Positions 33,888-40,223 of a DNA stretch of 43,549 nt are shown one piece after another. The stretch is taken from NCBI GenBank assembly GCA_020430845.1, contig JAGQJA010000191.1, positions 1 through 43,549 of the forward strand, given 5' to 3'. Under the pieces are notes generated by a model. It did no database searches. It saw only the letters and a list, made by a program, of their open reading frames with translations, and had not been told where the DNA came from. A program made the translations under genes and the position numbers. This DNA is from Myxococcales bacterium. Its GTDB lineage: Bacteria; Myxococcota_A; Polyangia; Polyangiales; Polyangiaceae. How positions within the stretch are numbered: the stretch's first letter is position 1; each line of letters starts with the position of its first letter.

Positions 33888-35387
33888 ATGAGAGCCTCCT
33901 TCGCGCTTGGGGTCACGCTGTCGCTCGCCACACTCGTCGCCGCATGCGGTGACGGCTTCCTCGGCTTCGGTTCCCGGGACACCGACTCCGAAGACAACGC
34001 GACGCGGGCAAAAGGAGAGCTGCCGCCGGAGCCCAACGAGGACGTCCGCGACAACGCGGCCTCCGAGGCCCTGCCCAACCCCCTCGCCGGCTTCCCGAAG
34101 GGCTCTCAGCAGCTGTCGATCGTCTGCGGCCGCGGCAAGAACAACGCGGTCACCGCGGGCCTCTGCAAGAACCCGTCGATCACCGGCGTCGTCGAGCTGC
34201 AGAACGCCGTCGGCCTCAAGTGGGCCGACCGCAGCGCCAACGGACGCAACGGCGCGAACGGCAACCCCGCCTTCGCCCTGCTGGCCCACTCCTCTTCTCT
34301 CATCGCGCACGACGTCTCCGCGCTGAACCCGCGCGCCCTCGTCTTCACGTCGGCCAACGGCGCGCCGAACCGGACGCCCGGCTTCGTCGCGATGGGCTTC
34401 GCCCGCGGCGAGACGTTCGCCGAGCTCGTCGCGCACGACCGCAACACGAACGAGATCCGCTTCTACCTCGTCGTCTTCGAGCCGGCGTGCTCACCCAACT
34501 GCTCGATCGGCGACATGGTGACGCCCGCCGTCGAGACCGGCTGGAAGAGCTGGTCGCTCTACGACGAGGAGGACCTCAAGAACACCATCCTCGACTGCCG
34601 CCACTGCCACGAGCCCAAGGCGGGCGGGCCACGCTTCTTGCGCATGCAGGAGCTCAAGGATCCGTGGACGCACTGGATGCGAAACGATCGCCCCGGCGGC
34701 GTGGCGCTCTTCCTCGACTTCCTCCGCGCGCACACCGACAAAGAAGACTACGGCGGCATCCCCGCGCCCATCCTCCAAGACGCCGACGGGCGCGCGCTCG
34801 AGGACCTCGTGGTCGGCAACGGCTTCGGCACGCAGCCCAACGGCTTCGACAGCCGGAGGATCGAGGACGAGGTGAAGGCCAGCGCCTCGGGCCAGCCCAA
34901 CGTCAACGTCCCCGCCGGCACGAGCTCGAGCTGGCAGCGCCTCTACGACGCCGCCGTGCGCGGCGAGTTCATCCCGCCGCCCTACCACGACGTGAAGGTC
35001 ACCGATCCCGACAAGCTCCGCTTCGCGCAGGACGCGTACGCCGACTTCAAGAACGGCGTGATCCCGGCGACGGCGATGCCCGACATCCGCAAGATCTTCC
35101 TCGACGAGGCGCTGGCCGACATGAGCCTTCGCCCCAAGAAGAACGCGACCGGCCGCGAGATCCTCGTGCACATGTGTCAGCAGTGCCACCACCCGGGGCT
35201 CGATCAGTCGATCAGCCGCGCGCGCTTCGACACGACCAAGCTCGACTCGATGTCGCGCGCCGAGAAGGAGGCCGCCATCGCGCGCATGCTCCTCCCGCCC
35301 AGCGACATCGGCGCGATGCCCCCGCGCATCATGCGCGCCATCCCGCCCGAGGATCTCCAGAAGGCGATCGCGGAGCTCCGCAAGTAG
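33888..35387 (+). CDS. CxxCH-type (di-haem) cytochrome-like lipoprotein, copy 1
   Basis: 499 residues. A lipoprotein signal ends at LVAAC (Cys20). Two c-type haem motifs are present: CRHCH at residues 237-241 and CQQCH at 430-434. Conserved blocks shared with the next gene include EALPNPLAGFPKGSQQL, GANGNPAFA-LAHSSSLIAHD, PRFLRMQEL, DPWTHWMRNDRPGG and MPPRIMRAIPPE. The C-terminal CQQCH segment with R-x-M-L-L-P-P-S-D-I-G-x-M-P-P is typical of small cytochrome c domains. Family unnamed to me. It would be placed on the periplasmic side as an electron carrier or a haem enzyme. Two extra cysteine pairs (VCGRG-x5-LC and ACSPNC) could be disulfides. Confidence 0.85.
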   Translation: MRASFALGVTLSLATLVAACGDGFLGFGSRDTDSEDNATRAKGELPPEPNEDVRDNAASEALPNPLAGFPKGSQQLSIVCGRGKNNAVTAGLCKNPSITGVVELQNAVGLKWADRSANGRNGANGNPAFALLAHSSSLIAHDVSALNPRALVFTSANGAPNRTPGFVAMGFARGETFAELVAHDRNTNEIRFYLVVFEPACSPNCSIGDMVTPAVETGWKSWSLYDEEDLKNTILDCRHCHEPKAGGPRFLRMQELKDPWTHWMRNDRPGGVALFLDFLRAHTDKEDYGGIPAPILQDADGRALEDLVVGNGFGTQPNGFDSRRIEDEVKASASGQPNVNVPAGTSSSWQRLYDAAVRGEFIPPPYHDVKVTDPDKLRFAQDAYADFKNGVIPATAMPDIRKIFLDEALADMSLRPKKNATGREILVHMCQQCHHPGLDQSISRARFDTTKLDSMSRAEKEAAIARMLLPPSDIGAMPPRIMRAIPPEDLQKAIAELRK

Positions 35388-35598: not shown

Positions 35599-37074
35599 AT
35601 GCGACTTCGTCCTGCGCTCGCGCTGCTCGCCGTCTCTGTTGCCGCTCTCGCGAGCGCGTGCGGCGACGGGACCGATCTCTCCAAGGGGCCCGGCTACAAG
35701 ATCGGCGAGGCGCCGACGCCGCCGAACGAGGACGTGCGCGACCAAGCGCCCTCCGAGGCGCTGCCCAACCCGCTCGCCGGCTTCCCGCGCGGGAGCCAGC
35801 AGCTCGCCGTGGTGTGCGGGCGCGGTCGCAACGACGGGGTCTCGCGCGGCCTCTGCGCAAACCCGAGCATCGGCTCGATCGTCGACCTGCAGGGCGCCGT
35901 CGGCCTCCGCTTCGCCGATCGCAGCGCGCGCGGCCGCAACGGAGCGAACGGCAACCCCGCGTTCGCGATGCTCGCCCACTCGTCCTCGCTCATCGCGCAC
36001 GACGTCTCGGCGCTCAACCCTCGCGCCATCGTCTTCACCTCGGCCAACGGCACGCCGCAGCAGACGCCAGGCTTCGTCGCGATGGGGTTCGCGCGGGGCG
36101 AGACGTTCGTCGAGCTCGTCGCCCACGATCGCACGACGAACAAGCTCACGTTCTACCTCGTGGTCTTCGAGCCCTCGTGCGGCGAGGACTGCACCGTGGG
36201 AGACATGGTGACGCCCGCGGTCGAGAAGGGATGGAAGAGCTGGTCGCTCTACGACGACGAGGACCTCAAGAACACCATCCTCGACTGCCGTCACTGCCAC
36301 GAGCCCAAGGCAGGCGGTCCACGCTTCTTGCGAATGCAGGAGCTGCAGGATCCGTGGACGCACTGGATGCGAAACGATCGGCCCGGCGGCGTGGCGCTGT
36401 TCCTCGACTTCCTCCGGGCGCACTCCGACACGGAGGACTACGCCGGCATCCCGGCGCCCATCCTGCAAGACGCCGACGGACGCGCGCTCGAGGATCTCGT
36501 CGTGGGCAACGGCTTCGACGAGCAGCCGAACATGTTCGACAGCCGCACGATCGAGAACGAGGTGCGCGCGAGCGCCCCGGCGCAGCCCGCCGACAACACC
36601 GTCCCCGGCAGGAGCCGTACGTGGGAAGCCCTCTACGAGCGGGCCGTGCGCGGCGAGGTGATCCCGCCCCCGTACCACGACGTCAAGGTGACCGACCCCG
36701 ACAAGCTCCGCTTCGCGCAGGACGCATACGCCGACTTCAAGGCGGGGCGCATCCCGGCGTCGGCGGTGCCCGACATCCGCAAGATCTTCCTCGACGCGGC
36801 GCTGCCCGGCATGAGCCTGCGACCCAAGGAGGGAGCCACGGGCCGCGAGGTGCTGACGCACATGTGCCAGCAGTGCCACCACCCGGGCCTCGATCAGTCG
36901 ATCAGCCGCGCGCGCTTCGACGTGACCAAGCTCGACTCGATGGACCGCGCGACGAAGGACCGCGCCATCGCGCGCATGCTCCTGCCGCCGAGCGACATCG
37001 GCCACATGCCCCCGCGCATCATGCGCGCCATCCCGCCCGAGGCCCTCGCGCGCGCCGTCGAAGCGCTCCGATGA
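35599..37074 (+). CDS. CxxCH-type (di-haem) cytochrome-like lipoprotein, copy 2
   Basis: 491 residues, a tandem paralogue of the gene at 33888; by eye about four of five residues match over the aligned length, with few gaps outside the signal peptide and linker. A lipoprotein signal ends at ASAC (Cys21). Haem motifs CRHCH at residues 230-234 and CQQCH at 423-427 keep the same spacing as in copy 1. Both copies keep VTPAVE-GWKSWSLYD-EDLKNTILD before the first haem. Each gene has its own upstream region (211 bp between them), so they may be expressed separately. Confidence 0.85.
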   Translation: MRLRPALALLAVSVAALASACGDGTDLSKGPGYKIGEAPTPPNEDVRDQAPSEALPNPLAGFPRGSQQLAVVCGRGRNDGVSRGLCANPSIGSIVDLQGAVGLRFADRSARGRNGANGNPAFAMLAHSSSLIAHDVSALNPRAIVFTSANGTPQQTPGFVAMGFARGETFVELVAHDRTTNKLTFYLVVFEPSCGEDCTVGDMVTPAVEKGWKSWSLYDDEDLKNTILDCRHCHEPKAGGPRFLRMQELQDPWTHWMRNDRPGGVALFLDFLRAHSDTEDYAGIPAPILQDADGRALEDLVVGNGFDEQPNMFDSRTIENEVRASAPAQPADNTVPGRSRTWEALYERAVRGEVIPPPYHDVKVTDPDKLRFAQDAYADFKAGRIPASAVPDIRKIFLDAALPGMSLRPKEGATGREVLTHMCQQCHHPGLDQSISRARFDVTKLDSMDRATKDRAIARMLLPPSDIGHMPPRIMRAIPPEALARAVEALR

Positions 37075-39224: not shown

Positions 39225-39390
39225 ACCGGTGGGAGATACGTCTCACCGGCGGTCGACGAAGGCGGGAAGTCGGTGCGAATCCGACGCGGTGCCGCCGCTG
39301 TAACCGGGGACTCTCCCACGCACTTTGCCACTCCGAAAAGGGGGAAGGCGCGCGGGAGGGGGTGAGCCGGGAGCCAGAAGACCTCTTCGT
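39225..39390 (+). promoter_or_regulatory. Cobalamin (B12) riboswitch
   Basis: A hairpin (CCGGTGGGAGA/TCTCACCGG, 39226-39250) leads into the conserved core GGCGGGAAGTCGGTGCGAAT, then CCGACG, GCCGCCGCTGTAACCGGGGA (39291-39310; B12-box CTGTAA), GCCACT (39327-39332), GGGGGAAGG and the closing GAGCCGGGAGCCAGAAGACC (39364-39383). All conserved elements come in the right order. CCTCTTC (39382-39388) is fully complementary to GAGGAGG (39427-39433), the ribosome site of the next gene, with one G-U pair. CCTCTTC can alternatively fold back on GAAG (39377-39380). This points to control of translation start. Confidence 0.93.
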
Positions 39391-39437
39391 CGAGCGAGCT
39401 CCACAGCGCCGCGCGGGCCACGCGGTGAGGAGGCCCG

Positions 39438-40223
39438 ATGAAGCACCGTGTCGTCTTGGTTGTGGGTTCCTGGTTGTCGTATGTCCTCGCGTGCGGGAGC
39501 GCCGACGACGCGCCAGCGCCCACGGGCGCGAAGGTCTCGATCGGCGACGGAGGCGTCATCGGCGCGGAGCCCGAGCGCGACGGAGACGCCCCGGCCGCAG
39601 ACGCGTCCGTAGACGGCGGTGCGGACGCCAGCACCCGGCTGCGCGACCGCTTCATCACGAAGGTCGTGAGCTTCAGCCCCGGCGCGTGCGCGGGCTTCGG
39701 CGCCGCGGCCATGCCCGAGATCCTGTTCGGGCCCCCAGAAGGCGCTGGCGACTTCATGGGCAGCTTCGACGTGGTCACGCTCGGGATCGGCGGCGAGATC
39801 GTCGTGTCGTTCGAGCCCAACGCGATCGTCGACGGTCCGGGTCCGGACTTCATCGTCTTCGAGAACGCGTTCTACGCGGCGGGCAACCCACAGACGCCCG
39901 CGGCGGATCTCGCCGAGGTGAGCGTCAGCGACGACGGCGTCACATGGAAGACGTACACCTGCGCGCCGGGCGCGACGCCGCCGTTCGCGCCGTGCGCGGG
40001 CTGGACCCCTGTGCGCTCGTCGTCCGCGAACGGTGTGTCTCCGTTCGACCCTGCGACGGCGGGCGGAGAGGCGTTCGACCTCGCGGACGTCGGCCTCGCG
40101 CGCGCGCGCTTCGTGCGCATCCGTGATCGGAGCACGCTCACGTGCCCCGACTCGGGGCCCAAGCCCAACAACCTGGGCTTCGACCTCGACGCGATCGCGG
40201 TGCTCCACCCAGCTCTGCCGTGA
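39438..40223 (+). CDS. Cobalamin-riboswitch-controlled surface lipoprotein, unknown function
   Basis: 261 residues. A lipoprotein signal ends at VLAC (Cys19); an Asp/Gly/Ala linker reaches about residue 70. The C-terminal domain contains VVSFSPGACAGFG, GGEIVVSFEPNAIVDGPGPDFIVFENAF, SVSDDGVTWKTYTC and a final PNNLGFDLDAIAVLHP, a beta-rich arrangement resembling a jelly-roll or discoidin-like binding domain. Two pairs of cysteines may form disulfides. ATG 39438 has ribosome site GAGGAGG (39427-39433). The riboswitch implies expression when B12 is scarce, so capture or uptake of B12 at the cell surface is likely, by inference. No TonB receptor or btu gene lies in the window. Confidence 0.88.
   Translation: MKHRVVLVVGSWLSYVLACGSADDAPAPTGAKVSIGDGGVIGAEPERDGDAPAADASVDGGADASTRLRDRFITKVVSFSPGACAGFGAAAMPEILFGPPEGAGDFMGSFDVVTLGIGGEIVVSFEPNAIVDGPGPDFIVFENAFYAAGNPQTPAADLAEVSVSDDGVTWKTYTCAPGATPPFAPCAGWTPVRSSSANGVSPFDPATAGGEAFDLADVGLARARFVRIRDRSTLTCPDSGPKPNNLGFDLDAIAVLHPALP

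Follow-up and report, generated by a model that had tools for sequence, protein, structure and literature searches.

What does a cobalamin riboswitch control when the gene behind it encodes a lipoprotein and no B12 gene is apparent around it? This question is raised by one locus in the window, by which we mean the whole 43,549-nucleotide stretch from a Myxococcales bacterium, a soil myxobacterium, that was analyzed here. The original prediction, made from the letters of the DNA, was that the gene encodes an orphan lipoprotein with an unknown β-rich domain, and that this protein represents a new class of surface corrinoid-capturing lipoprotein.

The riboswitch and the lipoprotein gene

The cmscan search placed the aptamer core of a cobalamin riboswitch (RF00174 positions 46–168) at 39264–39383 on the forward strand, with a score of 77.3 bits against a gathering threshold of 31.5 (E 1.8e-17). 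The riboswitch ends 54 nt upstream of the gene for the 261-residue lipoprotein P0001 (39438–40223, +), so that the predicted arrangement of a cobalamin riboswitch directly before this gene is confirmed. The gene is supported as an open reading frame with homologues in relatives; its GC content by codon position is 0.68/0.56/0.90, and a Shine-Dalgarno sequence, AGGAGG, is found at 39428–39433 (+) with the start codon 4 nt further on. A putative lipoprotein signal peptide (39438–39494, +) was recognized in the sequence by its lipobox VLAC, which ends at Cys19, and this cysteine is unchanged across 47 relatives. A 24-nt hairpin, CCGGTGGGAGATACGTCTCACCGG, is present immediately 5′ of the riboswitch core at 39226–39249 (+). 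An expression platform in which the 3′ strand of P1 is shared by an anti-start hairpin was considered but is not proposed here, its fold energies being no better than those of shuffled sequences.

No gene for B12 transport or synthesis was recognized among the genes called between 30.0 and 43.5 kb of the window, in agreement with the original prediction. The neighbors include seryl-tRNA synthetase and cytochrome c-like lipoproteins. Two tandem, closely alike open reading frames of about 495 aa (33888–35387 and 35599–37074, +), the first of which matches PF13442, suggest by their sequences the duplication of a gene for a cytochrome c-type lipoprotein.

The domain has the fold of BtuH

A Pfam search with the single 261-aa protein had no hits with an E of 1 or less, and a search of PDB sequences with it also found nothing. 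The AlphaFold2 model of residues 66–261 (39633–40220, +), made with 71 relatives, had a pLDDT of 96.2 and a pTM of 0.93. It is a compact F5/8-like β-sandwich and the β-propeller fold is absent from it. The best structural matches, both at Z 13.7, were the B12-binding H domains of two proteins of Bacteroides thetaiotaomicron, namely BtuG1/BtuGH (BT_1490, PDB 8BLW; 8blw_B 389–660) and BtuH2 (BT_1956, PDB 7BIZ; 7biz_B 314–593). The alignments covered 157–162 residues, and the fold is thus shared over nearly the whole domain; the next-best structure had a Z of 9.7. Foldseek also ranked 8blw_B first (E 7.8e-4). A family HMM run against PDB sequences again placed 8blw_B first and inside the H domain, yet with an E of only 0.1.

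The sequences were also compared with a set of BtuH relatives from Bacteroides and Persicobacter plasmid records. With hhalign, the family profile matched this set at a probability of 95.7 (E 1e-8), and in BLASTP the window protein matched a 273-residue BtuH-like protein of Persicobacter at E 3e-7. As a control, the DUF4465/BtuJ protein of the same Bacteroides locus scored a probability of 0.1. The BtuJ/DUF4465 family (PF14717) had been our first guess for a B12 lipoprotein that is not a propeller. These are B12-binding jelly-roll proteins that have been reported from Myxococcota as well (PMC13398666), and they too are riboswitch-linked lipoproteins of B12 uptake loci. With the hhalign probability of 0.1 and no PF14717 match, this candidate was rejected.

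The window domain also departs from BtuH2 and BtuG1. Identity to them is 18–22%, the domain is about 75–100 residues shorter and, unlike these two proteins, the window protein has neither a PKD domain nor a fused propeller.

The putative binding site

The window protein shares with BtuH2 and BtuG1 the SLG-GG-DF-V-NAF motif, and it is likewise a lipoprotein behind a riboswitch. The motif in the window protein is GPGPDFIVFENAF (residues 133–145; 39834–39872, +), and within it DFIVFENAF aligns with DFCVQGNAF of BtuH2, so that Asn143 and Phe145 are the equivalents of Asn399 and Phe401. In BtuH2, Asn399 contacts the phosphate of B12 and Phe401 contacts the lower ligand (PMC8941943). Asn143 is kept in all 71 relatives and Phe145 in 69 of the 71; this conservation could reflect structure alone. 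The original prediction had noted this motif and the lack of a propeller, both of which stand, but had taken the domain to be unknown and without any motif of known B12-binding lipoproteins. The motif proves to be a BtuH-type signature.

By contrast, the residues of BtuH2 that contact the corrin ring have no counterparts. His476, Tyr510, and Trp511 belong to an insertion not present in the short window domain, and the column aligned with Trp577 is not conserved in relatives. Because these contacts are missing, the pocket must differ from that of BtuH2 and the binding of cobamides is a prediction. The missing contacts also favor the idea that the protein belongs to B12 uptake and does not bind intact cobamides, acting as a scaffold or binding precursors such as cobinamide. 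There is precedent for this in BtuK2 and BtuL of B. thetaiotaomicron, which come from B12 uptake operons and did not bind cobalamin (PMC12751083). We consider this idea unlikely, though, as the Asn and Phe that serve the nucleotide loop are kept and point to ligands with a nucleotide loop. It is considerably more probable that P0001 is a compact, divergent BtuH-type H-domain lipoprotein for cobamide capture, from which the ligand would reach a BtuB-type TonB-dependent receptor by way of a BtuG-like propeller lipoprotein.

Gene neighborhoods of relatives

Like BtuH2 and BtuG1, relatives of the window gene are linked to btuB- and btuG-type genes. In many of them the TonB-dependent receptor comes next and is followed by a lipoprotein (for instance in loci L110, L117, and L146), and the same order is found in Persicobacter, where the BtuH-like gene is followed by a TonB receptor and then by a DUF5074 propeller. 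The receptor in locus L073 matched both the Plug (E 1.3e-15) and the barrel (E 4.5e-14) models. A TonB receptor homologue was present in 20 of the 79 loci, which is a lower bound, as are all counts from this neighbor census made with a few query proteins. Many relatives share operons with the TonB receptor, a BtuG-like propeller lipoprotein, BtuF, BtuC, and BtuD. In locus L148, a TonB receptor is followed further along by a BtuF-type binding protein, the H-type gene, a FecCD permease, and an ABC ATPase. Upstream of the H-type gene in Myxococcus xanthus AM003 (L143) there are a gene homologous to BtuC, a riboswitch, and a further lipoprotein gene. The last of these, an open reading frame (L143:4433–5992) of some 520 codons that has no Pfam match, separates the riboswitch from the H-type gene and may encode an additional component of B12 uptake.

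The partner lipoprotein was modeled from locus L131. Its ten best matches by Z, up to 24.9, were BtuG structures or their close relatives, and the top Foldseek hits were also of this kind. The mean pLDDT of the model was 65 (about 80 in the core) and it was therefore used for fold class only. BtuG propeller lipoproteins have a role in surface capture of B12 comparable to that predicted for the window protein, which itself is no propeller. The window gene is outside any transport operon and is not linked to btuB, unlike BtuH2 and BtuG1. The description of the lipoprotein as an orphan fits the window locus and its close relatives but does not fit the family, which occurs in B12-uptake operons.

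These neighborhoods bear on a second alternative, that the domain is a carbohydrate-binding or adhesin module of the F5/8 type C or CBM32 kind and its control by B12 incidental. CBM32 and F5/8-type structures matched the model at Z about 8 to 8.5, and a Pfam search over 47 relatives gave nothing of note beyond weak F5_F8_type_C (PF00754) matches in 4 of the 47 (best E 0.068). The window protein is also similar over residues 102–173 to the Leptospira LIC_13355 family (NCBIfam NF033170; E 9.7e-11), and published work on the LIC_13355 lipoprotein describes binding to laminin and plasminogen and leaves B12 unmentioned (PMC11891782). Even so, we regard an adhesin or carbohydrate-binding module as very improbable. 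The BtuH domains match far better by fold (Z 13.7) and also by sequence, and the operon partners are B12 transport genes with no glycan genes among them.

The Leptospira match taken alone did not account for function. At 41.4 bits against a family cut-off of 120, the window protein is related to NF033170 but outside that subfamily. With the NF033170 model there was a weak match to the Persicobacter BtuH-like protein as well (E 0.011). Judging by sequence, the Leptospira LIC_13355 lipoproteins might be B12 binders.

Distribution and riboswitch linkage of the family

Homologues of the lipoprotein were present in 75 of 96 related genomes, and the family was found in 240 of 374 Myxococcota genomes sampled at a completeness of at least 90%. 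A collection-wide scan found at least 446 relatives, from which 79 loci were kept for study, some of them with record titles that name Planctomycetes, Hydrogenedens, Sumerlaeaceae, or Binatia. Neither relatives of the window lipoprotein nor relatives of BtuH2 were found on viral contigs. Some record titles call for caution. Loci L165 and L166, from a Bifidobacterium breve MAG contig and an uncultured proteobacterium contig, have an identical match, riboswitch distance, and open reading frame, and for the B. breve MAG this is probably binning contamination. The gene layout of Myxococcus is seen in locus L130, whose record names Comamonas sp. KCTC 72670.

The loci of relatives were searched with a model of the riboswitch core for which 19 elements had been used. 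Part of these elements came from the tested loci, but Rfam had found those independently. In 50 of 78 non-duplicate named loci a same-strand riboswitch was located no more than 2.6 kb upstream, and in 18 of these the distance was at most 400 nt. By comparison, the same 78 loci had one riboswitch upstream on the opposite strand and four same-strand riboswitches downstream. Six of the seven loci whose titles name other phyla had an upstream riboswitch. In the related genomes, 38 of 60 loci had one upstream on the same strand over the same distance of 2.6 kb, 30 of them within 400 nt. The number of cobalamin riboswitches per genome in the related group is mostly one to six, and because of this essentially no linkage is expected by chance. 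The enrichment that the original prediction had proposed as a check is therefore strong. Corallococcus and a Myxococcaceae MAG have an extra cobalamin riboswitch downstream of the H-type gene (L121:7125–7222, L127:7123–7220, and L134:5283–5381).

An accidental or relict pairing of riboswitch and gene, with an unrelated function for the lipoprotein, would suit the 28 of 78 loci without an upstream riboswitch within 2.6 kb and the lack of B12 genes found nearby in the window, but is the least probable of the explanations, as same-strand linkage recurs in loci labeled Myxococcota, Planctomycetes, Hydrogenedens, Sumerlaeaceae, and Binatia.

The host genome and a model for cobamide capture

The draft genome of the host is 8.56 Mb in size and 89% complete, and only two cobalamin riboswitches were found in it, including that of the window. 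The second (C649:23266–23467, –) is upstream of a lipoprotein without a Pfam match (L003:10913–12382, –) that clusters with the BtuG-like propeller lipoproteins found at the B12 loci of relatives. The host also encodes a B12-dependent methionine synthase domain, CobS, two FecCD permeases, and an unlinked TonB receptor that is related to the operon receptors of relatives. DUF4465 was not found in this draft genome.

Repression by B12 is the usual behavior of cobalamin riboswitches. If the riboswitch in the window follows this behavior, it would permit expression when cobamides are scarce and turn the gene off when B12 is sufficient. The lipoprotein would be anchored in the outer membrane through its lipobox, presumably on the outer face, where the H-type domain would capture a cobamide and hand it to a pair of BtuG-like propeller and TonB receptor encoded elsewhere in the host genome. 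We file the protein as a variant of BtuH because the fold, the homology, the nucleotide-loop contacts, and the linkage are those of BtuH but the corrin contacts fail. Of the new corrinoid-capturing class that was originally proposed, the capture role is retained as a prediction, supported by the riboswitch enrichment and the uptake operons; the novelty of the class is not, given the H-domain fold and the sequence family.

Implications

Surface B12-capture lipoproteins had been described as a feature of Bacteroidetes. BLASTP at the settings used by its authors found no homologues of BtuG beyond this phylum, and it was asked why they occur only there (PMC6143338); BtuH was known from Bacteroidetes and just three Firmicutes (PMC8941943). 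We found no description of a BtuH-type lipoprotein in Myxococcota in the open-license papers searched, where the single paper listed for BtuH together with Myxococcota deals with DUF4465, although it may have been noticed earlier elsewhere. A B12-scavenging system seems to be common in Myxococcota and undescribed there. As a wider proposal, to which we give an even chance, a surface cobamide-capture system made up of a compact H-domain lipoprotein, a BtuG-like propeller, BtuB, BtuFCD, and riboswitches would operate in Myxococcota and several other phyla outside Bacteroidota, with an H-domain pocket remodeled to do without the corrin-ring contacts of BtuH2 and with Leptospira LIC_13355 as a B12-binding branch. 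The Leptospira lipoprotein, studied as an adhesin, gains an alternative reading, and a family without a Pfam model gains a testable function. The presence of this riboswitch-linked, BtuH-like family in about two-thirds of the sampled Myxococcota genomes suggests that surface scavenging of cobamides extends beyond the gut.
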